This document shows positions 2,721 to 64,000 of a stretch of 64,000 bases of DNA, one piece after another (position 1 is the stretch's first letter; each line of letters starts with the position of its first letter). The position numbers and the translations under genes were made by a program. The stretch comes from Lutjanus erythropterus. Lineage: Eukaryota > Chordata > Actinopteri > Lutjaniformes > Lutjanidae. The notes below the pieces were generated by a model that did not search any database, was not told the origin of the DNA, and was given only the letters and a program-made list of their open reading frames with translations. The stretch covers positions 38,098,705 through 38,162,704 of the forward strand of contig CM034592.1 of the NCBI GenBank assembly GCA_020091685.1, read 5' to 3'.

Positions 2721-4489
2721 CATTTAGCCAACTGTTGGGCTACTATTATGTAGTTATATTTTAAGTTATGTAGACTTTTGAATGTGGGCTACTAATTTGG
2801 CAGTTAGTCTGTACTTTAGTTAATCCAGTGTACTAATATATTTTCCCCAACTACTTTGGTTTAACTGATGTTTAGCCTACAGCATCTCATCTTTAGTATT
2901 TATAGCATCACTGAATTTGTTGTGTTTTGTACTGTTTTCAAAATTTACAACTTTAGAGGCCAGCATCTTGTCTTCAACCTATTGTAAGTATGTTACACTC
3001 ATTCTCTTCACACACACAGAGTGAGGACTGAAAAATAAAGCCTATGGAAGAAAAGTACAAGGTGACAGGATTAGCAGACTTTAAGGCCTGTTTTGAACAG
3101 TTTATACTGGTCTCTAGTGGACAGTCTGCATACTACAACTTTTTCTGTATGGGATCCTAAGATCAGAGATTGAAATGTCAAGTTATAATCAAATGTTACC
3201 CCCTGCTGTATGGACCAGCTTCAATAACACAAAATACTTTTTATGTAAAACAGAAATGTGTGTGGTCTGATATCTCTAGATTTATTTTAATTTCCTGTCC
3301 TAAAAGGTGTGAAAAGACGACTGCGTTGAGAAGGATTTAATGACCCTGTTCCCTGAGGTAACTTTGATGACCTTCAAAGCAAATGTCAGAGCCGGTGAAC
3401 TTTAATCTATTTGAAATGGCTCATGCTTGGGAAAAGCTGCTTTCTGTGCTCGGCTATCACTGTCTCGTCTGTGTGAGCTCAATGGACAGATTAATCAGAG
3501 GTTTTAGTGAGTGAATTTAGATTTTCATTCTCACCTCAAACTTAAGTTAAAAAAAAATGCAATTAATTTTATCCACTGCTTTTATTGTTCACTAGCTGGA
3601 CACAGAAGTGTTTCTGCACTTTCAGTCTCAGTTAGGAACTCCACAAGACTGGAAATCCCATCAGAAAATGTACAGCAGTGTGTGTCCAGACAGTCTATTC
3701 AATGTCACCTTAAATTTCCCAAAATCGGGCCCTTTGTCTTTAGAAGTTATTCTTTAACTCATTTATTTTAAAACATATTTTGTATTCTGTGTTTTCTAAT
3801 TGCTGTCTAAAGAAATAATTCACTATTTTGACAAAAAAAAGAAAAAAAAACACTTTCAGGAAAGTCATAAATGGTAAAAAAAAAGAATTTATTACCAGTT
3901 AATAGTTTGATAAAATTTTCATGCAAATATGACAGAAAATGCTCTCAAATACAGAGATTTATTATCACATTAAAATGAATATCTTTGTGTTTTTTAAATG
4001 AGACATTTAAAGACATTACCTTGGACTTTGAAAAACAGTGAAGGACATTTTTCCCTGTTTTCTGACATTTTATTGGCATTATACCTCTAAATTAAACATG
4101 ACAATTACCTTTTGTCTGATAACTGCAATTACAAGGGCAAATAAAATTGACTTTGGGCAAGTCGATTGACCCACTTACCTGAGTGAAGTGATGATGAAGT
4201 ATTGTCATGATAATGACTAAATAAATGCTAAATTTTAAAGCTGCAGGAGGCGACTTAAACACACAATGCAAAACCTTGTGCTTCTTTCTCTGCAGTCTTT
4301 TTTCAGATTGCTGAGCTCCTCTCACCAAATGAAACCCCAAATTCACATGTCATTTTGCTGGGCTTGAAGCAGAACGTCAAGGCTGTCAACTGTCATAACT
4401 AATTAGCAAACTAAGGTCACTTCTACTCAGCGACAGCTACTTATGTCTGACTCACAGATAAAAACAACACGAGCATGTTGAGTCTGAAA
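2721..4489. other. AT-rich spacer, no gene seen
   Basis: Nothing recognisable as gene or structured element. A-rich runs occur at 3831-3850 and 3876-3885. The open frames here (86 and 84 codons) have no codon structure or motif to support them. Confidence 0.4.
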
Positions 4490-18467: not shown

Positions 18468-19868
18468 CATCCCAGATTCCCAAAAAGTCGGGATGTTGCG
18501 TGAAATGTATAAAAACTGAAGGCAATGATTTGCAAATCATTTTAGACTTGACTTGAATACAGTATGAAGATAAGGAATTTCATGTTCAAGCTGATCAACT
18601 TCATTGTTTTTTGTAAATATACACTCATTCTGAATATGAAGTTGGGACAGGAGCAACAAAGACTTGGAACACTCCACAGGTAAACAGGTTTATTGGCATC
18701 AGCTATTGGGTATTAAAGGGGCATCCACGAAAGGCTCAGCTGGGGCAAATAGTCCAACAGTTTAAGAGCAACATTTCACAACACACAACTGCAAGGAATT
18801 TAGGGATTTCACCATCTACAATTCATAACATTATTAAAACATTGAGCGAATCTGGAGAAATCTCTGCACGCAAGGAGCAAGGCCAAAAACAAACACTGAA
18901 TGCCTGTGACTGCATTAAAAACTGACATCACTGTATAAAAGATATGACCACATGGGCCAAGAACACTTCAGGAAACTGCTGCCATCACATCTATAAATGC
19001 AAGTTGAGACTCTACCATGCAAAGTGAAAGCAATATATTAACTAAACATTCAGAAATGCTGCAGACTGCAGTGGAAAAGTGTGCTGTCGTCTGACAGGTC
19101 CACATTTCAAAGTATTTGGAAATCATGCCAATATGACCGGCTCCTAAGCTGGAACAAAGGAGAGATGCAAACCAAACTTATCAAAAGTGAACTGAAGTTT
19201 TTAAAATATTTAAACAATAATTGCTGCAGTGGGGTAAAGAGCGCGACAGGAACAGTGCAGGACTGATGACTGAGCGCTGGGGTTAACTAGCCTGGGAACA
19301 CTGGCCAGGTGTTTCCACTTACATAATGGCGCCTCAGCTCCACCCAGTGAAGGACCTGCAAGACAGGGCACATACCAAGTACCATAGATCTGGTGCCGTC
19401 ACAGTGCCCATGGCATCATGGCTAATGGTCACATCTATGAGGCCCTAAAAACATTCTGTCTGTTTTACAGTAGCGTGGGTTCATAGTAAAAGAGTTCAGG
19501 TTCTAGACTGACCTGCCTGCAGTCCAGATCAGTCTCCCATTGAAAATGTGTGGTGCATTATGAAGCACAAAATGCACCAAGAGAGACCCCGGACTGTTGA
19601 GCACCTGAGGTCGTATATCAAGCAAGAATGGCTTTCAAAACTTTAACAGTTAGTGTCCTCAGTTTCCAAACAAGTGTTTTTAGAGAAAAGATGATGTATC
19701 ACAGTCGTAAACATGCCTCTGTCCCAACCTTTCTGGAAAGTGTTGCAGGCATCAAATTCAGAAGGACTGTATATTTTCAAAAGACAATAAAATATGTTTG
19801 TTTTAACATTAAATATCTTGTCTTTGTACTTTATTAAATGGAATATAGGTTGAAAAGTATTTTCAAAA
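18468..19868 (+). pseudogene. Tc1/mariner-type transposon relic with long inverted ends
   Basis: The two ends are long imperfect inverted repeats: the left (about 18547-18660, including CATTCTGAATATGAAGTTGGGACAG) matches the reverse complement of the right (about 19714-19850, CTGTCCCAACCTTTCTGG ... AGAAGGACTGTATATTTTC). Inside, broken reading frames give a helix-turn-helix DNA-binding region (ARNLGISPSTIHNIIK, about 18791-18840), a first-aspartate region (WKSVLSSDRSTFQ, about 19073-19110) and a final catalytic-type block (SPIENVW, about 19531-19551, followed by RPRTVEHLRSYIKQEW). The segment that should hold the second catalytic aspartate is missing or replaced (19140-19460). Frameshifts and stops occur throughout. 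The outer part of the left end (CAATGATTTGCAAATCATTT) has no partner on the right, so the right terminus is truncated at about 19868. Confidence 0.75.
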
Positions 19869-26994: not shown

Positions 26995-27292
26995 CTAGAT
27001 TTTTAGCTAGCTACCAAACAATGTGATGTTTTGTTAACTTTTTACCTAGGTAGCAAACGGCACAATGTTTTGTTAACTTTTTAGCTAGTTTGCAAAAAAA
27101 TTAACTTTTTGTTAACTTGTTTGTTAGCTAGCAAACAGTGTAACATCTTGTTACTTTTAAGCTAGCTAACAAACAAGTTAACAAAAAGTTACATTTTTTT
27201 AAACAAGGTTATGTTTTAACTTGTTAGCTAGGAAACAATGTAGCCTTTTGCTAACTGTTTACCTATCTAGCAAACAATGTAATGTTTGTAAA
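26995..27292. repeat. Degenerate minisatellite, about 38-45 base unit
   Basis: About seven units of the form TTAGCTAGCTAnCAAACAATGT followed by (G)ATGTTTTGTTAACTTTT; unit starts near 27001, 27045, 27083, 27124, 27158, 27218 and 27262. Units differ and one (27158-27190) is partly inverted. An (ATTT)n tract follows at about 27357-27400. Confidence 0.65.
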
Positions 27293-31507: not shown

Positions 31508-32198
31508 TACACTCTTAGAAATAATGCTAACTAGAACCATAATAGGTTCTTCAGCTTGTCCCCAAAGGAAAACCCTTTTTGGTTCCTGGTAGAACCTTTC
31601 ATAGAGGTTCCGCTTGGAACCCTTTCAGAGAGTTCTATCTAGAAATTTTAGATAGATTTATCTAGCACCCACCCAAAGGGTTCTACTAAAAACCTTTTTA
31701 AATTTTAAGGGTTTCATGTAGAACCCACCCAAGGGGATCTACTAAGAACATTTTTATATTCCAAAGGTTTCCTCCAGAACCCCCCTATGAGAGATTCTAA
31801 AGGAGAACCCTTCCATGGTGCAATGGTTCCACCCAGAACCTTCGCTCCCCATCCTCACTGGGGGTTTTATCTAGGATCTTTCCACCCTCTACCCCTGATC
31901 CTGGGGCTTGTACCAAAATCACTTTTGTATTCCAAGAGTTTCCTTTAGGAACCACACAAGGGATCCTACTGAGAACCTTTTTTATATTCCAAGAACCCTT
32001 CAATATTATGGTAGAAAGAACCCTTTCTTGTAAAGGGGTTCTTTGGATAAAAAGGCATCTTGATGGAACTCTTAGTCTTACAAATAACACTTGATGAACC
32101 CTTTTTTTCAAAGAAGGTTCTTGAGAGGAAAATGCCTCTGGGTAGAACCTCAGCCCTTCAGAGATAACCCTTTTGGAACCCTTATTTCGGAGAGTGTA
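31508..32198. mobile_element. TIR element filled with GAACCCTT-like repeats
   Basis: Starts TACACTCTTAGAAATAATG and ends CTTATTTCGGAGAGTGTA, an imperfect terminal inverted repeat. The interior is built of reiterated pieces such as AGAACCCTT, GGTTCC, TTCTACTnAGAACnTTTTTA and CTAGAACC (over a dozen occurrences). Length 691 bases, with no transposase. The ACACTCT(T/C)..AAATAA..GGGTTC end is widespread in fish (memory). No clear target duplication was found. Confidence 0.6.
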
Positions 32199-46649: not shown

Positions 46650-47297
46650 AGAAAACGGTCAACTTACTTTAATTGTTCTCTCGTGCTCGTCACCTGTTAC
46701 AGCGCCAGAAGTCCCCTTAACAGCCCGTATGAGCCTCATAGTGAACCCCGCAGACACGTTCATGCTTTGTCTTGATAAAAGAATAACCTGTATTTCCATT
46801 TCGCAGCGCAGTGGCAGTGAGAATAAGTTGCTCCATCTTTTATAAATGCCCCACATGGTCCCAAAACACTTAATTATCGCTAGGTAAGGCAGTGTGGACT
46901 GTCCTCCTCTCGATGATTGACAGCGGGGTGAATTGAAGTGGCTTTGAAGGGGATGACGGGTCCTCCCTTTGACGAGCGGCTGCATCGATAATTCAAATAT
47001 TATGAACATTCTCTCATTAATTATGGACATAAAGTTAAACTTTTTGTTTGATGGCACACTGACGGGATTAATGTTTTCCTAAAATGTGTGGCTGTGTTAC
47101 TGTGTTGCTCGGTGCCCCCCTCTGTCTGTCGTTTGTTTGGTTTCGCCCAAACTTGGTTCAGATTTGAGTTGGTTTTCACTGCTATCTGGGATCGCTCTAT
47201 TGGAGGTGAAGGACCGCCTGTCCCCTCTCTGCCTTCGCTGTCAATGGCTTTCGGGACGTATTTTATTTGAATGTCTGGACATTATAAGTGACCAATA
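46650..47297 (+). promoter_or_regulatory. Probable promoter and 5' UTR of the gene starting at 47298
   Basis: Immediately upstream of the signal-peptide exon the sequence becomes richer in CpG and G+C than the flanking DNA (for example around 46690-46760, 46910-46990, 47200-47240), and CpG stays frequent in the start of the intron to about 47780. A TATAAA lies at 46840-46845, but its distance from the ATG would imply a long 5' UTR, so it may be irrelevant. Homeodomain-type ATTAATTA lies near 47015-47022. No transcription start can be fixed from sequence alone. Regulatory role is inferred from position and base composition. Confidence 0.4.
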
Positions 47298-47349
47298 ATG
47301 GATATTCTATGGATATTATGGACCATACCGGCCGTAATAGCTGTTGAAG
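47298..47349 (+). CDS. First coding exon (signal peptide) of a secreted or membrane protein, possibly an EphB receptor
   Basis: Seen: an ATG with A at -3 and G at +4, preceded in frame by a TGA at 47289-47291, opens 17 codons reading MDILWILWTIPAVIAVE plus one base, then AAG|GTAAGC, a near-consensus splice donor at 47349/47350. The peptide is a short hydrophobic signal sequence (ILWILWTIPAVIAV) with a small-residue end suited to signal peptidase cleavage. The phase-1 junction right after the signal peptide is typical of receptors built from extracellular modules. Known from memory: in EphB receptors the signal peptide ends close to A-V-E-E-T-L-M-D and exon 1 stops inside the second Glu codon; this exon ends A-V-E-G.., fitting that junction. 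EphB receptors are ephrin-B-binding receptor tyrosine kinases of the plasma membrane. Inference: ephb-type gene, with the following >16.6 kb as intron 1. Other cell-surface genes with a signal-peptide exon remain possible. Gene start about 0.75; EphB identity about 0.45. Confidence 0.7.
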
Positions 47350-50300
47350 GTAAGCTAATGTTTTCATTGACGGTTGAAGCCGCATCCTCTTGCCGACTTT
47401 GAGTTTGAGACAAAGCGCGTGCACGGACGTTAGCTAATTTAAATCATGAGAAAGCTAACGAAAAATTAACCACTTTTTAGCTCCCTTCATATTTGTTAAT
47501 GTGTTATATCTTGGCGTGCATAGTGCTTAAATGTAGAGTCAGCTCAAAGCAGCAGGCAATGGATGATGGAGGGACCCAAAAACACGTCTCAGCATCTCCG
47601 CAGGTACGCTGTTAACGCCGTTTAACGCTGTTAATTATGGAGTAAAATTAGCTTGCCTTTATGTACCACAGCAAGCTACGCCAGGTTAGAAAACGTTAAA
47701 TCTCAGCTCAGGTACGCTAGGTCGCGCGAATCCCTGCGTGTCCGTGGAGGTGTGTCACCGGTGTCGGCTCAGTTGTCTCAGCTGGTGATAAAAAAAACGT
47801 GAAAGACAAACACTCAACCCTTTTTCAGCGTGTCCGAGTGTGAATGCGCAAACATACCGTGTTGAAATTCCTTTAAATTAACTTACAAACGGGTCTGTCT
47901 GCCCGCTATGCAGTCATATGTGAGCAAATCGTGGCTGAGCAGTAACAGGCAGTAGACAGCGTGGCTCAGCACACAATGAAACAGGTTGAATGGTGAAAAT
48001 AATCTCTTTAATCTAATATGTGTTTACAGTAGTAACTCTATGGTGCACCGAGGTAACTATAGTGGTTTACCTTACATACTACAGCATACTACAGTATTCA
48101 TATATATACGGTAGCTACTTTCAGTAACTATATTATCGTCTTTGCCCTTTGACCTTATAAGGAAAATATTTGATAACGAAAGAGATAATGAAAGCTATTT
48201 TTCATTATCCTTTTTAATCTATGAGCTTTCAGTGTGCACTTTAAATCATAATTTGCAGGTTATATGTCTATGTAGCAGTTTGCTCTGTGAACTGAAGAAT
48301 AGAAAAGTGTCAGCCCAGCCATACATTTATTGAGGCTATTTTTATGATGCTGTCAGAAAACAAATATGTCTTCTTCCTCTGGTCAGTTTAACTAAACCTC
48401 ATAATTACAGGTGGAGCTGAGAAAGTATGTTCAAACTCCACCAAATGTAACCGCAGGATAAAACAACAACAAAAAGAAAAACAGGGAAAATAGTATTTGG
48501 CTGCTTGTTCAGGGTATAGATCATTTCACATCCTAAAAGTGTATAGCAAAAGTTGAAGGACCTGCCGGGTCCCATGTAGGACTGGCAAAGACTTTGATGG
48601 ATGTCAGGCGCATTTATGCAGACTTCTTCTGACTGCTCCTGTTTATGGGTTCAATGTAGTCGCATATCCAAGACTTAAACAGTCTTAGGGCTTCTATTAC
48701 ATTTAACTTTGGCAGCTTTAACATTTGTATCATAGTTTTGAAATTTGTCTCATAGCTTTATAATTTTATTTAAGATTTTATCACTTCACATTGTTCCGGG
48801 ACAGCCATATTATTTTAGGAAATTACGCATACAATCCAGTCTCAGCACTAAAACCAGATCACACGTACACAGGGAACAATGTATGGCATACATTTCATAC
48901 AATTCATGAATTGTATTTTTAATGTATTTTTAATATATTATTTAAATATATTAAAATATATCATCAGATTTATTTTCGTGTCTTAGAACATTTCGCCAGC
49001 GTTACAGAAATTCTAAATATCACATGTGTTAATATTAAAACTGCATGAATTATAGTGTCATGTCCCATATCCCAGTATTTTAAATGATACATTGAATATT
49101 AATATACGCTACTATATTTATGTACAGTATTTTTAATAAAAAGTACAGACTACAAATCTCATAATAGGTAACTGTATATCATCATCCCATGTATATACTC
49201 ATAATAATGAATTTATTTTGTTTTCTTTGAGTAACTGATATCATACTTGATTGTTATCATAATAGTTATTTATTTTTTGATTTTATCCTTGCTGCTCTGT
49301 CCAAGAGCAATGGAGCCAGAGGATGTGAAAATCGCCAAAAATAACAACAGATTCACACCACACAGTGTTTCACTTCCCCTTGTTTTCTGTTTCTCTCTAA
49401 AATGCAAATATGGCCAGGGTTACTTTGTCTACATGTAAAATCTACTGTGAGGCGTATGTGTAAGCTGAGAGCATACAGTGCCTCAAATACCAATCGGCAT
49501 AGCTCCTCAAATATTTATTGCAGTGACTTGAAGTACACTTCTTGTTCGATTGAGATGATGCTGTCGATATTGAGCATTACACTGGGTATACAGCATGCAT
49601 GTTGCAGTACCTTTTGGGCCTGTGGCGTTTCACTTTTTGATTTGGAAACCAGCTAGTCCCGTCGCCAACCCAATACAGCCCCCCTCCATTTTACCCTGTG
49701 AATCACCCTAGTCGACCATCCAATGAAGTTGCAAGGATGGCTTACGTATGAGAAATAAAGGGTTGAAAAAGAGGTCACTGCAGCTCTAATCCGAAAAAAA
49801 AAAAAAAAAAATCCCAGCATGCAACAGAAAAGAACCCTCTAGTGGATCGTTTTGACACGTTTAGTGCTGGGACACTACATTTTATGTTTAATACAAACTG
49901 ACATCTTTGCATAGGCCTAGGTCTAATTTTTTTTCTTCGCTTTTTTTTATTTTTCACAGACAAACGTTACTTGCTAAATACACCTTTGTGTTATTCATTT
50001 ATCGTAGAAGCAGTATATATTCTGTGGGAAACATTTAGCAAAAAAAGCAGTTACACATTTCTAGAATTAATAATTTACTTATTATATTTGATCAGTGAAT
50101 CAGGCAGAGATCATATTAGAGAGGATTAGAGGATTAAAACTACTAAAACTTAAGAAAGTCCTAGCTGTGTCCCAAGTATCCATTTTGCGAATAGCGTGAA
50201 CACTGCCCACTATGCAAAGTCTGAAAGACTGTAACTTGGCCTTCAAACAACAATTAGAATTTTTCCTCGGCATCTTATCTCTATTCAGACTCCTACACTA

Positions 50301-51862
50301 TGTTCCATCGCTTTAGTAATATCGCCATGTTGGACAACTATAAATGGCGTGTATTCATCAGTGGCATTTGACCATTTTTCAAAGGCATTTAATTTATCCT
50401 GTGGAATGTGAAACAACTCTAAATAAATTGTTGATTAGTGTTAATGTAGGCTGCCATTGATGCCACGTCTTATTGGTTTAGTTAACAGGAACAGACAGGC
50501 TCTTTTTGAAAATTAATGGAGGTAGTACTGCCAAGGAAATTAGCTTAGCTATGTCAAACATGTCTATGAAAACACACTGTGGATTTATCCCTTCATTAGT
50601 TTACCCATTCATTGTCATCAGCGCTCAGTTGACAGCCACACTAACAATGGCCGCTCATCTAATTCTGTTGAGTGGAAATTCTCAGATTCATCCCCGGCCA
50701 TAAAACTGTAGTAGCCTGTATTGTTCGGGGGAGATGAAATTTACTAGACGGATCATTTGGCTTTTTTTCGATTTCTCCCCCTCCCTTCTGTTGTGGTATT
50801 ACAGTTTGTACTGTGCAAACACAGCAAACGCTTTCTGGGAGGATTGGTTTTGCTGTGATGCAATAACAACCTCCTCCAGACTTGTATGCAAGTTGTTGTT
50901 GGGGTCAGCAGGATGATAGATCACTTTGATAGGACATTTTCTGTCCTTTTTCTTTGAAGGAGACATAATGGGACAGAAACCACAGCAGAGGATGGTGAAG
51001 TGGGGTAGAATGAGATCACAGCATGGAGTCTTAAAAAATGTCTAGCAGATTTGATTGCATTTCAATATGCACTGCATTCCTTCAGCGCTCTGTTAAGCAC
51101 TGGAGCCCAGTCAGTTGAAAGTTGGCAAACAGTGGCCGCGTTGATGTTTCAAAATTTTCAGTTTATTGTTTTGATTTAGTTTAGTAAATTACATATATTT
51201 GTATATTGCGTAACCCTTTCCGTACCATTTTCCCACACAATATAAGGAGGTCTGACAGTTCATGGCACAGTATGATTGTTAATGTTTAGAAAATCCTGCC
51301 AAGTTTGGTAAAGATGCTTTCATATGTTAATTCAGTGGCTGTTTTTGACCGGAATTGTTTTGTAAGGAATGGACGTGCGAGTGTAACATGGAAGCATTAT
51401 GTTTTGTGGAAGAGTAACAAAAGACAGACGGAGGCGGGCTCCGAAATGGGATTAGATAAAGGTAAAATGAGCGACCGTATACAATCCGGTGTTTTCTCAG
51501 TCCACCCAATGAGCAGATGCAGGGAGCTGGCCTGCACGCCAACCGCCACAGTAGGCTTTCACAAAGAATCTGTCTCTATTCAAGCCTTAATCCATGCTGC
51601 CGAGGGCCCAGGCATTGTCACTTTGCATGCAAAATTTCAATTAGTGCTGGTACCAGTTGTTTCACTTGAAGGGAGGTGTCACATTTCAGAGACATCTATG
51701 GCTACCTTTAGGGTGAGATTAAGGCAGGAGTGTCACTGCTTTGCTTAAGAACATTTTGCATTGCATAAGGTTACTGGTACTGAGCTGCTCTGCTTTACTA
51801 TGGCCACTGTAGACCTAGATCTTCATCAAATTACTAGAGGTTCAACTATACTGTAATATATA
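47350..51862 (+). other. Start of intron 1; mostly unique AT-rich sequence
   Basis: Begins with the donor GTAAGC at 47350. The first 450 bases keep a CpG-rich, promoter-like composition. Beyond that the DNA is AT-rich with no recognisable exon. A poly(A) run lies near 49794-49810. Stretches around 50500-50930 and 51420-51740 are more complex and less repeat-like than their surroundings. A 147-codon open frame at 51305-51748 has no recognisable domain and is probably chance. Confidence 0.4.
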
Positions 51863-52430
51863 CTTAGGTGGCAAAAGTACACACCATTTTCTTGTTTTCT
51901 CAAGTAGAACTACAGATACTTGTGTATCTGGTAATAGCAGAAGTACTCGTTCAACTTCTTTACTCAAGTAAAATTGAAAAATACAGGGTCTGAAATGTAG
52001 TCATGTATAAAAGTAAAGAAGGACATGCCTACTGGCTTTTTCTGTACAAAACTAACTGAACCTCACATTTGCTCCATGGTCAAGTTGCCCTCTCTTGTCT
52101 TGTTAAGTCTGGTACATAGTTTTCATCTTGTTATATCTGTTGTGTGTGATGTGCACTGATGGATAAACGTATGGGTTATTGTCCCATCCTTTAACGTTGA
52201 AATTGATCTATATGTTAGGAAGGTGGCTCACAAGATGCAAATTAAAAATAATCAATAACTCCTCTCAAATAAATTAGAACTCAAGTAGTGATTTTGTTTG
52301 GAAAATGGAAGGAGTAGAAAGTACAGATATTTGTGTTAAAAAGTTGTCAGAAAAATAAGTACTCAAATACAGATACTTGAAAACGCTACTCAAATACAGT
52401 AACAATGTATTTTTTTATTCGTTTAATCCT
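51863..52430 (+). mobile_element. hAT-type short element, decayed
   Basis: Contains GGTGGCAAAAGTACACACC at the left, TTTACTCAAGTAAAATTGAA, GAAATGTAGTCATGTATAAA, then AAGTACTCAAATACAGATAC and GCTACTCAAATACAGTAACA at the right. The AAGTA/TACTCAAGTA series is the signature of the same hAT-derived class as at 15400-15568 and 33193-34770. Termini are not preserved. Confidence 0.5.
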
Positions 52431-55400
52431 TGTTAAAGTTTATTGTCTAAAAGTGAAACAGGTAAAAAAAATAAAGAGCAATCATTCCCTTAAGTTGGAT
52501 TTGTTTAAACCTTCACGCACGAGATGTCACTGTTGTAGGTTTCTGTCCCAGCTGGCGCTGTAAGCAAAATAGTTGCGTATGTTGCTCCTGGCTCCAGTTT
52601 GTTCAACCAATTTAACTAAGGATTCAGTTCAAGACATGATGGACTGTTTGACGCTGTTTCCATGCTTTCAGCTGTTTGAATCAGACTGCTGCGGTTAACA
52701 GTCTTGAGCCAACTCTTCGTTCTCTCTTGCCTGTAACTGTTGAGTCAAGTTTGCTTATGCTCATGTCTGTGAGTGCACTACACACTGGAGTTAAGAGTGG
52801 AAGCATCTAAGGATCAGTTTACCGAAGTTCTGAAGTTAACTATCACACTGGGAAGTACTATCATACCCTTGAAAAACACAGTATAATCAACTGAATGACA
52901 ACTTCAGAAGCCAAGCCAAAATGCAGCTGTATCCACTGCACAACCTCTTCAGACTGTACCTCGTGGCTTAACACTTAATATCACCACACGGGTGAACAGA
53001 GTCTGCTTGTGGTACTATTTTTTTTTTTTCCACATGCCCTGTATCACTAGTTTTCATACTTTTGGTATTTATAGCTTCTTAAAAACAGAACAGGTGTTTA
53101 ATCTTCTGTCTCTTTGGTCTGTTTAGTTTGCTGAGACAAGCCGGTCAGATATGGCTGTCACTTGATGCTATCAGAAAATGAAAATATTTTCAGAGTCAAC
53201 AGGTGTTTCAAGTCTTTCAATATGCAACATAACACTGCCAGTGCATGACTGAGTAACAGACTGAAAACAGTGGGTTTATTTAAAAGTAAATATGAGGTGC
53301 TTTAGACTCCTGGGGTGTGTTTCGGCTTTTAGAAAGGATTGATTTAATGCATACTCTCTCTTAAAGAGACTGCTTAACCAAAATTCATCTTGATAGTTTT
53401 GGTGCGAGTTGCTGAGTTGAAAGAAAGTAGTTTCAGTAGAAGGAAATTGAAACTGCTCACAAGATCTTTGGATTATCGGGTCGTGATTTCTGGCAATAGA
53501 CATTTCTATTCAGCTTTTTAAATGTATTTTTGGCACTCTACAGCTATTTTCAAAACATGGTAATTCACACCAAAACAAAGTTAAGTGGATAAACAGCACT
53601 ACAGGTAAAAGGAAAAAAAAAAATATATATATTTTTTTATTTGGATTATACCTACCCTTCATTTAATATTAATTATTAAGTTTAAAAGCAGATTTTAGAT
53701 TTTCTTGTGTAATAATATGTTAATTACAAAATTTCATTAACAATTGGAAATAGGCTACATGATAGATAAATACACTGGTCTTGGAAACAAGATGGAACAT
53801 GCTGTACTGAGATACAAAAACACACAAAAAAAGTGTCCCGTAGCTGAAATAACAGGAGTTTCAAAATTTAGAAGAAAATATATGGCTTATCTGGAAAAAA
53901 AGAAAAATTAATTACATTATCTCTGTATGAAATTTTCATGTATATTTTCCATGTTGCTAATGTGATTCATATTGGTAAAGAATTAAGAGACTTGAGAGCT
54001 GTGATCTATAGTATATTTGCAGAGGCACAGAAATGTGTTTTGCGTTCACAGCAATGAGGAACTCTGTCACAAGTGTCTACATGTTTGACTTGGTGAAGGG
54101 AGTCTGGCAAGATATATTAATCTGTGATCTCATCAAATCTTAAACACATAAAGATTAAAAGATGTATCCACCCACTTTTATTTAATAATAGGGTTGGTCA
54201 TATCAAACAAAGGCATGCGTGGGTTAAATGATAGTTGCACATAACTCTTAGCATTTGATGTGTTCATCTTTAAGTTTCTAATAGGTGGCATTTAAGTTAA
54301 TTGCAAGTCTCAAAAAATTCTCAAGTTTCCTTTCAGATACTTATCTTGATTGTCTGAACTTATTTTTGGTGCTTATGTTTATGTCCATGTGGAAGTAAGC
54401 TACGATAAGTTTCTCTTAATACCACACACTGGACATGTGTTTTTTCTTTAGAAACAAATCAAATAGCCCTATATATTTTATGTTTGCAGAATCCGTGATC
54501 AAATTGTATACATATTGAGCAGCTTTTGTACAAGGATTTTTTTTTTATGCACAACTCAATCTCTGTTCAAATAGCATATCAATTTCTACTTATATAACAC
54601 TGGAGGTACTGTGTGCTATGAATGGTGAAAAGATGTATTATGGAGAAATGTATTATTTAGTGAGGATCAGGTGAATTAGGGGTCTTGAGATTTGTTTTTC
54701 TTGCAGTGCTTTAAGGATAGGTGTGCCGTTTGATTGGAGGGCTATAATTGTTTCAGTATGTAGTTGGGAAAACAGCGCGGTCAGAAAGTGAAAGAGTATG
54801 ACTAAGGCTATAATAACAGTGTTATAGTGCAAAATATAGCACTCGTAATCCTAAAAGGATAAGACTGGACAAAGATAAGATCGAACTTCGAAGAACAGGT
54901 TGTTCTTTTCTTTTTCACATTATTACAGAAAGGATCTATTATGTTCATCAAGGTTGCAGACAGATGTTAGAAATTAATGTGGGGAGTTTATTCCACAGGG
55001 CTGAAGCAGGCCAGTTGGTCAAAAAGTTCACATATGGTGTTTTCTTGCTGACTAGAAGAGAGTAGTTTTGATAATAAATAGATACTTACGGAAGAAACTT
55101 GCTTTACCTCCATGTAACCTCTCTCTGATAGTTCACACAGGAATCTAGATCAAGGATGTTCTTATATCCTGCTATCTTAATTAGCACGTGTTAATTGGCA
55201 ATGTGCAGTCTCTTGGTAAGTCATATTTATTAGGAAGAGCCTGATTCATCCCAACCCGTTGGGAATAGAAATCATTAGGGGACAGTGAAATGTATTTCCA
55301 GACATTATTCATAACAGGAAACATGTAAGCACTCATAATCAAAATGGCCCAACAACATCTACAGGCCTAATTTGCAGTCTAAATTCTTTGTGCAGTCTCC

Positions 55401-58400
55401 TTAATTTGACGGAAGTCTCAGCCATTATGTGGAATCAGTGTATTTTATGTCTTTGTCAGTGTACATTCCCTCTTTTTATTCATGCGGGCAGTAAAACTGT
55501 TGTCCCTAAGTCTGATAACTGGGTTTTCTGGAAAAGTGGAGGTGAACTGATCGTGATCCAGTGTTCCTGTCCGATACTTCATCTGAATGTTGAGTAGAGG
55601 GAGAGTACAGTAGAATAGTGCTTTTTAATGCTGATAACAATGTTAGGGAAAAGAAAAATTCAGCTATTGACATATTTGCCGATATTGTAATGATCCCTCA
55701 AATGTGCTCATCAAACAGTTGTGACAAAGATATTTATGGCAGGATATTTTACAGTTTAAAGCTGAACAGTCTCATTTTAATACGGATGCCTCTATATGAC
55801 CTACATAAGCACACAAGGCCATCATCGAGAAGACAGGCTATTTCTGTATAGCTTTTCTTAATGCTTGCCACAGGTTCAAATTCTCCTTGAAATCAGATGA
55901 AACCAGCTCTTGTTTACATTTTCCCTGCCAAAGATTTAATGCGTAGTATGAAGGAGATTTTCATTTACATAATTTTGTTTTTGATGTTATATTTTGTGGT
56001 TGTCCAGGGGTCTCTAAAATCAGCAAATATGACAGTTGCTTACAGTAGCTTTAACAATAAACTTTATTGTCCAAAATAATATGAGATAAATTTTTGCTGG
56101 TATTTTTAATAATTATAATAGACAAACAACTATAAATAAAAAAATAACACAAATGAAATGCTTCCTACAAAACATACATAAAGCAATCTGCATTATAATT
56201 TGTTTAAAAAAAAAAAAATCACATTGGCCAACACTGACATAGACTGATGTAGCTGTGACAGGCCAATATTTGACTGGTATAGGCCGACCAATACATCTGT
56301 CTAGGTCTGATGTTGAGTCATACACATTAACAATATGGCATGTATAATATTCAATCCAGCAAAGGCGGCTACCAAGTGAGGACGTAGGGAAAAAGAGAGA
56401 CAGAAGGAGGAGGAGGAGGAGGGAGAGTGTACCCTGAGAGAGGTCAGACCTCGTTTCAGAGACCCCCGTCCACACACACCCCAGGTACTGTGACACTGCC
56501 TTTATGAGTGCGACCGTAGAACACAAACCCACCGGATTAGTGTCTGGCTCTCAATGTCCCCGGGAGCAGAGCCCATCGGCCGAGACAAAGCGGGGCTGAT
56601 TGCGTTGTCATCTGCATCACAAAGGGAAGCCTTTTCTACCTGAACCACTGCCTGTGTGCCGCGCTGCACATCACATCTATCAGCGACTCTGCACCCACGT
56701 GACATCTGCCTTTTGTTTTTTGTCCATCTCTGTCTCCCCCTCTTCCATTCTTTCTCTCTGGCCCACACCGTCTGTCCACCATGGCCCATATCAACAACAG
56801 GACCCCCTCCCCCTCCCTCCCTCCTCTGTGGAAACTAGCTTCTCAGTCTGCACCAGCCAGCACTGACCGTTTTCTGTTTTTGCCGGTAGTTATGTGCTCA
56901 GCGCGGTGTGCATCATCTTCCCTTCACTACAAAGAGCGACTAACACATTTGTTGTCTCTCCTCTTTTCCCCTCTGGCTCTTGGCTGGCTAGCTGTATCTC
57001 AGCCCAGCCAACATGCAGACACATCAGACAAAAAAGCACAGTCTCCCACTGTCAGAACCTAACACGTCTATCTGTCTCACTCGGACAGAGAGAACTCCCC
57101 AGCTGAGGTGCTACCAGTAAGCAGACGTGTTTCATCTGATTAGTGTACTGGGCAGGCAGGCTCTGCTCCTCTATGACTGATGAGTGCTGTCTTGTGTTGT
57201 TGACACAGGCAGGTCCAGCAGCCATAACAGAGATGGATCAAGCTTCCCTATCTGGATTATCTTCTTATGCTTATGTACATATGAGTTTACCATAAGCCCT
57301 ATGTTGGCTTTTATATGCTTTGTGATACTTCATCATCATCAAAGAAATTACTTTTAAAAATCTCCTTCTTCCTTTCATATTTAATGACCTGAATGTGCAC
57401 TACTGTTTAACCGCTGAAATAAAATTTTAATTTTGGGGGAGAAACAAGGATCTTACATCTATGTCACGCATGATAACTGAAGCTGAAAGGTACACTTTTT
57501 TCTTCCTTTTTAGATGCTTTATGAATAGATTCAATAGATTAAACAGGGTATGACATTTAAAACACAGACGGAGGGACGGGAAAGGAAAGAATGACTTTTT
57601 GTGTCCTAAAGTGTGATAGTTGGTGGTTTCTATTCACAAGTAATTGCATTAGCTTAGAGAATTGGGAATTAACACAAGGCAATTAACTGATTTGGCCTTT
57701 GGCTGTGACTCGTCTGGTTTTACAGAGCTGGAGCTCATCCTCTGTTTTCATAGATTAATTTAGAAATCACATTCAGTCAGATGCAGAACCTTGTAAACCA
57801 TACAATGGCAGACCCAAGAACTCGATATACCTCAGTGAAATAAATGAATAAATTTAACATGGGTGGGCGCATTGCAGAAAACAGTCATTGCTGTGAGATT
57901 TCAACCTTGGTTCATTCTAATGAAGCTGTACTAACCCCAATACAGAAAGCCACTTTCCATCTAAAAGTGCAGGATGGAGGTTTAAGAGGTGAGGAATCTC
58001 AAAGGCAGGGGTCATCACAACCGCAGGGTAAACACACTTCTTAGACCTTAATCGCCTGTAGTCCAATTACCATGGACTGCTAGGCCACAGTGGCTAATTG
58101 TCAACAGCTAGGGTGTAATTTTCATTTCAACTTTGGGGGAGAAATCTATTGGGAACCGCTTAAGACACCACAATTATCTTCTTCACCATAGAGAGTGGTG
58201 TGTTCTTAATGGGATTCTATCCATGTGTCATACACTGCATGTACACTTTGACACTTAACATTACACCCTGACCTGAGCAGTTTTTAAGAAAGAGCATGTT
58301 AGCTGATCTTAGGGCAGGGCAACACATCTGTATTATATTGATACTGTGATATGACACTAGACACCATCTAGGTACCAAATTAATGATGGTTATTTAACAA

Positions 58401-59979
58401 AAATCTCATTTTGTTAATAAAAAAGCAATAGTTGTTTAAGTGGTGGGCAGACTCTATTTCCCACTTTTTAATAGATGCTTATCTTAAAGTTACTTTATTA
58501 TTATTTAGCATTATTATTATTATAGCATTACTAAAAGACTGTTTCAGATGGCACATTCATTAAAACTTAATTCATTAAAACATTTTGATGTTTCAGGACT
58601 AATAATAAATATGGAAAAGTGATATGTAACATTTCTGAACTAAAATGTCTAAACATGACAAGACCTATGTTATATATTTTTTGTTGAGTTGTGTACTCTG
58701 AAATATTTTCAGCCATGTTCAAATGCAGACAAATACGTGTTTTTATTCAAAGTCATGGTGCATCTCCTATTGCTATAACTTACACAGAACCATTGGATAT
58801 CTCAGAGAGTGGGGAAGGAAATTGGTGAACATGATTAAGCATATAAATATGAAAAATAAACAGAAGTCCCTCTGCACAGCCAGTATGAGGGATCAGGTGC
58901 AGGTCAGTTGCAGGAACATCTCAGGTATCAGCGTAAACCACCGTGCACTGAACTGATTTACTTTGACTTTATTTGAAGCAAGTAACATCTTTCGCACATG
59001 GCCTCTTCAGATTCACATAAATGTGAAACTTTAGTACATTAACTTGTCCATAAACATGATTTCTGCTTATCAGATAGATTTTCATCAGCGATGGTAGTTA
59101 TTTCACAATGAAGATGCAACTCCCCTGATCCCATGTTATACTTCAGCAAACTAGATCTTGTGTTGTTGGTTTCATGTGAGAGACCCCATGTGGCAGAAAT
59201 GACATATTGTGCATTTAATTTAACAATAAAAAAATGTTGGTCTGGTGTATTGATATCTCATTGAAGAAAGAGGAAAACCATGATTTAATACAATGTGGGT
59301 TTTATTTTCATAGATTCACTCATTAGTTGTATTAGTTTTGACAATTTTATCTCTTGTTTGTCTATTTTTGTTATACAAGTCATGATGCTTATATATTTCT
59401 ATGGTTTGTTGGAGCAACTGTAACGTAACCCAGTTTCCCTCTGCATGGGATCAATAAAATATTTCTGATTCTGATAACATTCATGAGACTGAAAACGTGA
59501 AAAAGTGATGCAGTCACGAAAGTGAGTTCTGAGATCTCAGCAATTATGTTGATGAGTACAATATTATCATAATCAGACCAGATGGCTTGACATATGAAAA
59601 TAAAACTCATGTTGATTTTTTTCTTTAACTTTTATTTTGTAATATCTTTTAAGGACTTTATTTCAATAACGATAAATTAATGTGACTGTGTAACATTTAC
59701 TGCAATTTTGTCTGTTACACATTTGGTATTTATTCAGCTTTCAGACTGAACTGTAGCATGGTGATTGCATTTGAACCCTGAAATCTATGAATGTAGTATG
59801 ACTTACCTAACTCTAACAATATACTGTAAATTGATAATTTACAGTGTAGATTTAAAAGTAGTTAACAAAAATGAACCTCAGAAATGTCAGTTACCTTGCT
59901 AGCAACTGCAGTATCAAGTCAGCCGACAGAATGTCTCTGTTTTATGTTTCTGTTTTTCATGTTTCTAAGGCTTCCACTA
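52431..59979. other. Intronic spacer (if the gene at 47298 is correct), no exon recognised
   Basis: AT-rich with poly(A)/(T) tracts (53029, 53613, 56204). (GGA)n at about 56404-56421. A GGCCAATATTTGACTGGTAT stretch near 56261 resembles a dispersed repeat. 56440-57120 is pyrimidine- and CpG-richer with several overlapping short frames, none recognisable. 59430-59478 (GCATGGGATCAATAAAATAT then TTCTGATTCTGAT) resembles a LINE 3' end with its short tail repeats. Confidence 0.35.
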
Positions 59980-60345
59980 ATGCTAATGATTATTTCACAG
60001 TAGATTAACTGGATGATTTTTTTTTCTTGATTAATTGATCATAGTTGTGTGTTTTAAAAAGAAATTTCAGAAAATTGTGAATAGTGTCAGTCAGTGTTTC
60101 CCAAAGCCTAAGCTGACATCCTTAAATGTCTTGTTTTTACTCACAACTCAAAGATTTTCAGTTTACTGTCAGAGAGGAGTAAAGAAACATTTCACATTTC
60201 ACATTTAAGAAGGTGGAATCAGAAAAAGAAAAAAATGACTTATTTTTCTTTTTAAAAAAATACCCAGACAGGACAATCTATTATCAAAATAATTGTTGAT
60301 TAATTTAATAATTGATTATTAATCAATTAATTGATAAAATGTTGT
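59980..60345 (+). mobile_element. Short element with GATTAAT-rich ends, copy 1
   Basis: Opens CTAATGATTATTTCACAGTA, has TCAGTGTTTCCCAAAGCC, AAATGTCTTGTTTTTACTCA, TTTTCAGTTTACTGTCAGAG and AGAAGGTGGAATCAGAAAAA, and ends in GATTATTAATCAATTAATTG then TTGTAGCTCT. The order agrees with a common percomorph repeat whose ends read as runs of TAATCGATTAAT (memory). Confidence 0.55.
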
Positions 60346-62179
60346 AGCTCTATGTGTTTCTCTCTCTGCATTCTTAGACTGATTAGATTGTTACAATTGG
60401 TCGATAGAGTTAATTGAAGAAGACAAAACATGTATGTGAAATTAACAGAGGGGATTTTTCCTTTCCCTAGAGTGACTGACAGGGATCAACAGAGTTACAG
60501 CCATAGTAAGCACGCAATATATTTCAGATCACCCTAGTAGTGGCAGGTGGCCACTGACCTTACTGTGGTTTACTGTGAGGATTTATTTTATTTTACTCCA
60601 AACAGAGGAATAATGTGGATTGATGAAAAGCAGGACTTAGTGTTTTGGTTTTTTCTCTGACCTCATACCACTCTCCCGCAATGAGTCTACCTCGGCTTAC
60701 GGCTCCAAAATCAATAACCTAGACTCAGCAAAGATTATACCCTTGTGATTGTGTTTATGGAGCCCTATCAATTGACACTTCATTGTAGTTGTTTCATATT
60801 CAGCAAAGCCAGTGATAAATGCACCATTTGGGTAGAAAAGCTTACCTGAATTTACATAATCACTTGTCTGAAAGTGGATCTAGTGTGGGGAGCAATCAGC
60901 AGCATCTGCCACACTCACACTTGTAAGAGCTCCTGTTAATGGAATAACATCTTGTCCCCCTCTTGTTCCGACTAACAATTCATTGTTATTTTATTCTAAT
61001 TTCAAACCTGTTAAAGATTTCCAGCAGGAAACACTATCTCTAAAACACATGCCCACCAGTCTAGAGCTGCCAAAGAAAGACCGATACATGTCCTCTGGGG
61101 TCAATAAAACAATGTCTGGAATCACAATACAGCCATGAGGTAACGTGGCTTTCAAAACAGGAGCCAGGTATATAGGGAGATGGTGAAATGATGACTGTTT
61201 TCCGTGCCTTCCCCTGGCAGGGCCTTTTGGGTAAAAAAATCACAATGGATCATTTGGGAGGGCAGCTGGAAAATCCATAGAGAATCTCAAGAGACCTGCT
61301 GTGCCTGTGAAATCAATACAGAGATCCAGCTGAGACCATTAAATGAAATGAATGTTATATGATAGGGTTAAACATGTAGAATATTATTATTCATGCAGTC
61401 CAAATAGGTTTTTCATCTGCAGATAATACAAGCAGGCATGGACGTCAATAGAGGCACTTGTGTTTCATGCACCTACTACACATTCAAGCAATCCATCATG
61501 TATTTGACCTGTTGTTAGCCTTAAGAAAGCGGCAGAGAAGGTAACTGAGAGAGTTAAATAAATTGAACTAGTGCTATACTGTTATTGGTCTGTGTTTAAT
61601 TGTAGTTTAATACCAGATAAGAAACACTATAGCAGCAGATAAAACTTGGCAGCACTCAGGTTGTGGGCACTCTCAGATAAAACCAGGCCAACAGCCACAA
61701 GTCTGGTAGTGGTGGAAGTCTCATTTCCAGCACATATCGAATCCTCAATAATGGAGATCAGATAGAGGGCTTTTTCACAAACTTAAAAAATAACTAAGAC
61801 ATCTGTTAAAATTAGTGACAGACTAATTAATCGGTCAATAAAATCTGAGATTTCACAGACCAATTAATTGGCTAGTGCCTTAGCTCATGAGTCCGATAAA
61901 CAAAATGCAAGCAGCCTTGTCAGTGTGGCTGCTGTGGAATGGTGTAAGTACCCTCTCTGGAGAGTTTTGGGAAAGCATTGAAACAGTTAGTTTCGAGCAA
62001 TGTACTCTGAAATCGTGAAATAGCCCTCCAACCACAAAGACACCTGTGTTGATTCAAAAGGTGCAAACAGAAACTAAATAATGTGTTCAGGAACTGCTTC
62101 TGTTCTTCAATTTATCTTTATGGAGGTAATAGCTATTTGAGTGTACAACACTGTGCAAAACATAACATATGTCAAACTA
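60346..62179. other. Intronic spacer, nothing recognised
   Basis: Mostly unique-looking; 60640-61330 is less AT-rich and low in repeats. No exon supported. A GACTAATTAATCGGTCAATA piece at about 61820 may be another fragment of the GATTAAT-ended family. Confidence 0.3.
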
Positions 62180-62430
62180 TAATTTATCTACCGTTTTTTT
62201 CATGATTAATTGATGGATTTGATTCTATAATAGAATGTCAGAAAATAGAAAAAAATGCCAAATCCCTAGGTGACAATTGTATATTGCTTGTTTCATCCGA
62301 CCAACAGTCCAAAAACCCAAACATATTCAGTTTACTATCATATAAAACAGACAAGCAGCAAATCCTTGTACTTGTTAAGATGAAACCAGGCAATGTTTGG
62401 TATTTTTGCTTTAAAAAATAAAAAATGACT
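62180..62430 (+). mobile_element. Same GATTAAT-ended element, copy 2, truncated
   Basis: TTTCATGATTAATTGATGGA at the left, AGAATGTCAGAAAATAGAAA, CCGACCAACAGTCCAAAAAC, TATTCAGTTTACTATCATAT, and TTTTTGCTTTAAAAAATAAA. The right end is missing. Confidence 0.55.
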
Positions 62431-62539
62431 TAGCTAGGCTACTAATTCATTTGTTTTGTTGCTCAATTTATTTATTTATTGGACTGTTTGGACAATTTGT
62501 GGACAGTTTGTCACTTTGGACTCTGGGAAATTGTGTGTT

Positions 62540-62727
62540 TTTCAGACTTTTTTTTTGGGGGGGGTGCTTTTATGCCTTTATTGGACAGGACTGCTGAAGT
62601 AAGGACAGAAATGGGGAGAGAGAATGGGGGGTGGGGGGTTGACATGCAGTCAAACCCTTGACTGCTGCAGTGAACTCAGTCTCAGTACATGGGGTGAACA
62701 TGATACCAGCTGAGCTACCAGGCCACA
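62540..62727 (-). mobile_element. tRNA-headed SINE
   Basis: On the minus strand the head reads GTGGCCTGGTAGCTCAGCTGG (box-A-like TAGCTCAGCTGG) and GTCAAGGGTTTGACTGC (box-B-like), followed by a body with CCCCATTTCTGTCC and ending in CCTTTATTGGACAGG (plus-strand reading). Matches a common fish tRNA-derived SINE from memory. It lies between two opposite-facing pieces of the GATTAAT-ended element. Confidence 0.55.
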
Positions 62728-62732
62728 GTTTT

Positions 62733-62828
62733 TGACAGTTTTGACATTTCATAGACTGAACGATTAATCCATTAATTAGAAAAATAATCGGCAGATTAAT
62801 CAATAATGAAAATAACCGTTAGTTACAG
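62733..62828 (-). mobile_element. Same GATTAAT-ended element, terminal piece, inverted
   Basis: Reads GACATTTCATAGACTGAACG, ATTAATCCATTAATTAG, AATAATCGGCAGATTAATCA and AAAATAACCGTTAGTTACAG: the left end of the family in reverse orientation. Confidence 0.55.
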
Positions 62829-62879
62829 GCAGACCTGAAACTCATGTTTTGGAACTGCTATTTTTCAGTCTATCTGCAT

Positions 62880-62932
62880 GGAATGAAACCGTGGACTAAC
62901 TCTCTAACCACTAGGACACCCATACTGACTTG
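62880..62932 (-). mobile_element. tRNA-like SINE head fragment
   Basis: Minus strand GTGTCCTAGTGGTTAGAG resembles box A and GGTTTCATTCC box B, at close tRNA-like spacing. There is no cloverleaf with a clear anticodon arm, so it is read as a SINE fragment, not a functional tRNA gene. Confidence 0.35.
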
Positions 62933-63129
62933 ACAGAGGCACACAAGCACTACTCCATGTGTTTTAAAACTGCTTCTATTCCTCGATTTATCTTTATGGA
63001 AATCTCTTTCTGTTTTTCTAATCTCTATTGTCAGTTTATACAACATTATAGTATATGACTGAGCAAAACCTGGAAGACATTATGTGCAACAACACAGCAA
63101 TCGTAAATTAAAGCATATACCAAACATAT

Positions 63130-63260
63130 GACATTTTATGGATGCTTTTATCCAAAGTGCCTTACGGTAACATAAGGGAACAAATACATTTGTGGCATGG
63201 GTGGCCTCAGAAGGGAAGGAACCCCAAAAACGGGTACGGTTACTCGCATGCTGTGCTCAC
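63130..63260. repeat. Dispersed fish repeat with TTTTATCCAAAGTGCCTTAC motif
   Basis: GGATGCTTTTATCCAAAGTG, CCTTACGGTAACA and GGCATGGGTGGCCTC follow a series I remember as frequent in teleosts (…GCTTTTATCCAAAGCGACTTAC…). Probably a SINE-derived piece in reverse orientation. Confidence 0.45.
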
Positions 63261-64000
63261 TGCAGTGCCGCCCAGCCTGATTACACCTCTTCAGAGCACT
63301 TTCCAATGTGCTTTCCTTTAGAAATGGTTTAACACTTTGTAGTGGTCAGGCAGGCACACTACATGCATGTAGCGCCTGTACGAGCTGATGGGGTGGCTGT
63401 CAGGGAGCCTGCCTGTTGGAGTGATTGAAAAAGCATGTTTGGGATTAGTTGTCTGTCCTCATCTGTGTGTGTCGCTCTGGCAGGGGTGTGTATCCGTGGG
63501 TTGCACTGCTCTCTGGGCCTGCCATGGTGCTGAGTGATGGAATAGGTAGAGCTGGACCTCAGTTCTCACACTCTGCTGACACACACATAGCCTCTCACAC
63601 TACCAAATACACTCAGACACACAGATGTTACCACATGACCTACTCATGAGAGCAAGCACATGCATGTCCCTACTCGAACACAAGGAGCGAGATGATTTAA
63701 ATCTTTGCTCCAGATGTCCCTTGGGCACACTGAATTCAGCCGTTTTAAGACAAAGAAAAAGGCAATTGTTGTTTTGACCTAGCTTCATTTTGGCTTGGTG
63801 TGCAAAACTGAAAGGCTTTGGGTCATTTTACTGTGTGATTTAACTTTTCTTCCCACCATGAGAACCAGTAAAACAGCACATTACGCAAAATGATTCTCCT
63901 TTGATCTTAGTGCCTACAGTAATGTGTCCTATTTTTTTAGAAATAGAAATTGAGACCCATAACAGTGTTTAGTGGTTTTCCTCCTTACAGACAGATTTTT
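63261..64000. other. Intronic spacer to window end
   Basis: No exon recognised. A CA-rich stretch at 63580-63620. The window ends inside featureless sequence. Confidence 0.3.

Follow-up and report, generated by a model that had tools for sequence, protein, structure and literature searches.

The stretch of 52 bases at 47298-47349 of the window is almost certainly the first coding exon of an ephb2 gene in a vertebrate, probably a teleost, and encodes its putative signal peptide; this reading best explains the evidence as a whole. By the window we mean the entire 64,000 nucleotides analysed here (C2:38098705-38162704 of a 938-Mb genome in 444 contigs), and the features referred to below are collected in Table 1. 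An earlier note on this DNA had proposed the first exon of an EphB-type receptor; the exons found further downstream, the domains that they encode and their closest relatives of solved structure uphold this proposal and narrow it to EphB2.

Table 1. Coordinates of features at and around the first exon, numbered from the first base of the window
Feature	Position	Strand	Remarks
CpG-rich region around exon 1	46751..48250	.	taken as the likely promoter
17-mer TTGGTTTCGCCCAAACT	47137..47153	+	144 bases upstream of the ATG (distance by arithmetic)
Upstream ORF, 8 residues (MAFGTYFI)	47244..47270	+	if within the transcript
Upstream ORF, 6 residues (MSGHYK)	47271..47291	+	in the frame of the main ATG, ends 6 bases before it; supplies the in-frame stop
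Coding exon 1 of ephb2	47298..47349	+	putative signal peptide MDILWILWTIPAVIA followed by VE; the last base opens a Glu codon (phase 1)
Splice donor GTAAGC (AAG/GTAAGC)	47350..47355	+	opens the 62,486-base intron 1, which leaves the window
Window portion of intron 1	47350..64000	+	without exon 2

The sequence of the exon is exactly as the earlier note had stated it: 52 bases reading MDILWILWTIPAVIAVE plus a single G, closed by the donor AAG/GTAAGC, which leaves one base over. A stop codon in the same frame, TGA, occupies 47289-47291, and no ATG of that frame intervenes before 47298. The good start context and hydrophobic leader described there are equally borne out, with A in position -3 and G in position +4 relative to the ATG and a hydrophobicity of 2.23. 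When scored with a donor frequency matrix, only eight of the window's 3743 + strand GTs, the donor at 47350 itself counted, score this high. The leader contains a hydrophobic stretch and, judged by eye, positions -1 and -3 of a putative cleavage site are Ala and Val; the -3/-1 rule together with the start of the human mature protein would place signal cleavage after Ala15. There is no positive charge near the start of the leader (MD), which is unusual, and the same is true of the leader of a second ephb2 copy located on contig C5 and described below.

The gene to which this exon would belong runs rightwards out of the window. The best match to the ephrin-binding domain (ephrin_lbd) in the whole genome lies at C2:38222689-38223189, on the strand of the window and about 76.6 kb downstream of exon 1, and a strict + strand search of the interval between exon 1 and this match returned a single exon 2, which starts at C2:38208540, also on this strand and 62,486 bases past exon 1. 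It opens with CAG/AG ACA CTT ATG GAC TCC ACA ACA GCC ACA GCA GAG CTC GGC TGG (acceptor junction CAG/AGACACTTATGGAC) and encodes the peptide ETLMDSTTATAELGW. From the junction A-V-E-E-T-L-M-D the earlier note had predicted a phase-1 exon beginning AA-ACN-CTN-ATG-GAY; the exon found has AG-ACA-CTT-ATG-GAC after CAG, with AG for AA and still a Glu residue. The left-over G of exon 1 and the AG of exon 2 make up a Glu codon, giving V-E-E-T-L-M-D, and in human EPHB2 the junction between exon 1 and the E-T-L-M-D exon is in phase 1. Exon 1 would supply the signal peptide of the receptor, and its spare base would join exon 2 in encoding the Glu of V-E-E-T-L-M-D, the expected N-terminus of mature EphB2. 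Inside the 64-kb window strict searches for exon 2 gave no match on either strand, and two looser patterns gave nine hits, none of them Eph-like by eye.

The remaining exons, located by tblastn with human EPHB2, are collinear on one strand. Joined together, the model comprises 16 exons and 2967 bases including the stop codon and encodes 988 residues without internal stops; its coding span is 171,550 bases (171.6 kb), with intron 1 accounting for 62,486. An in-frame GT...AG solution is present for each of the 15 introns, and the uniformity of these borders is built in because the gene-joining script permitted GT...AG introns and considered no other kind. The predicted protein ends in SVEV and is identical to human EPHB2 at 877 of 973 aligned residues, the human comparator being a sequence for which exact agreement with chains of solved structure was checked at 58 residues. 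Pfam searches of the joined model yielded Ephrin_lbd, Ephrin_CRD, two fn3 stretches, EphA2_TM, kinase and SAM, each above its cut-off; the ephrin-binding domain (PF01404, E 1.6e-75) occupies residues 18-199, after the putative signal peptide, and PF25599, PF07699, PF00041 (2 stretches), PF14575, PF07714 and PF00536 likewise lie above cut-off. By analogy with other members of the family, the product would be a receptor tyrosine kinase for ephrins, expected to bind ephrins and to signal through its kinase domain.

As judged by its best relatives of solved structure, rather than by a family tree, the downstream gene is EphB2 specifically. Exon 3 scores 490.5 bits against EphB2 (7s7k) and 307.7 against the next receptor, EphA4; of the chains restricted to the ligand-binding domain, EphB2 (1nuk) reaches 341.3 and EphB3 (3p1i) 247.8, in a structure listing without a chain named EphB1. 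The listing for the kinase does include one, and here the highest score is that of 1jpa (689.6 bits), whose listed name, 'neural kinase, Nuk', we take to denote EphB2; next come 3zfm, named EphB2 (650.4), EphB1 (603.6) and EphB3 (597.0).

Comparison within the genome provides a further line of evidence. The exon 2 peptide has 10 genomic places at E <= 10, and the pattern GCNGTNGARGGTRAG (A-V-E followed by a GTRAG donor) occurs 94 times in the genome, on the forward strand in 37 cases and on the reverse in 57, compared with 62 for the reversed control. When the two lists are compared by eye, A-V-E plus donor is located at most 65 kb upstream and on the same strand at three of the ten exon-2 places and is absent at the other seven, with distances of 62 kb for the gene considered here, 33.8 kb for one on C5 and 38.2 kb for one on C7; the chance expectation is about 0.003 per place. 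The C5 gene is a second ephb2, since its exon 3 peptide is 92% identical to that of the present gene, and it is probably the partner (ohnolog) that arose in the teleost duplication. The presence of two EphB2 copies, together with contig numbers that reach C24, suggests a teleost genome. Its leader exon, MDMLYFLWMLPAVWAVE with the donor AAG/GTAAGC, measures 52 bases from the aligned ATG, like the exon in the window; it contains four in-frame ATGs, which would give 28, 46, 52 or 88 bases, and the agreement at 52 hangs on the choice between them. The two leaders are identical at 11 of 17 residues and, once the M and AVE used to find the C5 leader are set aside, at 7 of 13, a figure equalled by 4 of 100,000 shuffles. 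The leader exon of the C7 gene, which from its sequence reads as EphB3-like, likewise ends in A-V-E plus one base (AAG/GTAAGA); however, its exon 3 peptide is only 67% identical, and its leader MDYFLLLCSLLLPVVSAVE measures 58 bases from the nearer in-frame ATG and 64 from the other.

The DNA around exon 1 is rich in CpG and is a likely promoter region, and it is from here that ephb2 most likely starts. At 47251-48250 the observed/expected ratio of CpG is 1.01, which ranks first among 1053 one-kb windows spanning 264 kb; on a 500-base scale, the three highest ratios in the 64 kb belong to windows that begin at 47251, 47501 and 47001. The 17-mer listed in Table 1 is shared with the C5 ephb2: exactly two exact copies exist in the 938-Mb genome, the second at C5:1217623-1217639, 175 bases (by arithmetic) upstream of the aligned ATG, and the reversed control has zero exact copies genome-wide. 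A DNA search with the 1.5 kb around exon 1 returned a single match, namely itself, and the segment is thus not seen as a repeat; the C5 ohnolog was not picked up by this search. Further along the gene, a second strong CpG peak at C2:38307955-38309954 (209251-211250 from the first base of the window; 1-kb ratio up to 0.98) sits in the intron preceding the ephb2 exon at 212059 on the same count. Because intron 1 is long, the gene may possess an alternative first exon.

Short open stretches with a hydrophobic leader also arise fortuitously, and their frequency can be estimated. On the + strand between the first base of the window and exon 3 (123.9 kb) there are 18 pseudo-exons, defined as ATG exons of 12-40 codons that end in phase 1 at GTRAG, and two of these combine a full Kozak context with a strong hydrophobic stretch: the one at 47298, which ends in Glu, and another at 3416, which ends in Phe. 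The former is the more hydrophobic (2.23 vs 1.79) and is the only one of the pair with a terminal Glu; among the 23 pseudo-exons of the - strand none is strong in this sense. Sixty Markov resamplings of the window averaged 0.43 such strong exons for each 64-kb strand, so that hydrophobicity, context and donor alone are within chance; strong candidates with a terminal Glu appeared at 0.017 per 64-kb strand. What carries the case for exon 1 is its Glu ending, together with the CpG peak and the gene downstream. That 47298-47349 is a chance open stretch without a transcript we consider exceedingly improbable: the resampled rate and the second candidate at 3416 would suit such an origin, but it leaves the CpG peak, the Glu-ending phase-1 junction, the collinear EphB2 gene and the matching exon of the ohnolog to coincidence.

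Six-frame Pfam searches across the complete window (E <= 0.001) gave HTH_11 as the sole family, in one of 36 stretches. The earlier claim that no coding start other than 47298 has support in the 64 kb agrees with these scans as far as they reach; short exons devoid of a Pfam domain can escape them. The open frame at 18617-18925 (+ strand, 102 residues) matches HTH families and is presumably a fragment of a Tc1/mariner transposase. Scans of the window with Rfam at gathering score and for tRNAs gave no match, and two tandem repeats are present, at 31660-31782 (56-base unit, about 2.2 copies) and 27000-27176 (39-base unit, 4.6 copies). The exon might, alternatively, be a genuine one from a different secreted or membrane protein whose leader exon ends in phase 1, with ephb2 using a different first exon, a notion to which the general abundance of phase-1 leader exons and the 62 kb that separate exon 2 from this site lend some credit. 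Nevertheless, we hold it to be very unlikely in view of the six-frame Pfam result, of the strict filter, which found no further strong leader exon after 47298 up to exon 3 and one upstream, at 3416, and of the C5 ephb2, whose matching leader exon shares this donor and is likewise preceded by the 17-mer. Assignment of the exon to ephb2 thus remains the preferred reading.

Outside the window, the two ephb2 genes differ at the end of exon 2. The C5 gene has a 65-base exon 2 with the donor GGG/GTGAGT and without the residues SSDNS (its intron 1 is about 34 kb), and the human EPHB2 exon 2 also measures 65 bases. In the present gene the corresponding position of exon 2 (C2:38208540-38208619) reads GGG/TCAAGT and lacks a donor. 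Among in-frame donors the best, AGT/GTAAGT, lies 15 bases later and gives an 80-base exon with a score of 5.9 on the donor matrix used above and the predicted addition of SSDNS before W-E-E-V-S-G, at the join of exons 2 and 3. Of ten GTs within about 110 bases, considered as alternative exon 2 donors, four hold the frame to exon 3; the other in-frame exon lengths of 47, 56 and 107 bases have donor scores of -5.1, -1.3 and -5.7 vs 5.9, and a 64-base exon 2 (AGG/GTCAAG, score 1.8) breaks the frame. It is likely, as a prediction, that exon 2 is spliced 15 bases on and that SSDNS is added to the ephrin-binding domain. A broader proposal, which we offer tentatively and with less than even confidence, is that in this lineage one ephb2 lost the usual exon 2 donor and gained SSDNS, and that the 17-mer, kept since the duplication, may be a shared core control site. 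Among the papers that searches of the open PMC library listed for EphB2 or Eph exon structure and for insertions in fish, the titles and abstract openings do not address the exon structure of this gene, and a search there for ephb2a together with ephb2b in zebrafish gave no paper.

Two points follow for the annotation of such loci. A leader exon of 52 bases, lying far from the other exons and below the size at which ORF finders operate, could be called correctly from sequence alone; moreover, exon 1 locates the likely ephb2 promoter in this genome.

The ephb2 described here is an ordinary orthologue. It has the same domain order as mammalian EPHB2 and, compared with the human sequence, shares the predicted mature start VEETLMD and the C-terminal SVEV. 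The present gene differs from human EPHB2 in its leader, which has a different sequence and places 15 residues rather than 18 before VE, and in the five extra residues SSDNS predicted at the join of exons 2 and 3.
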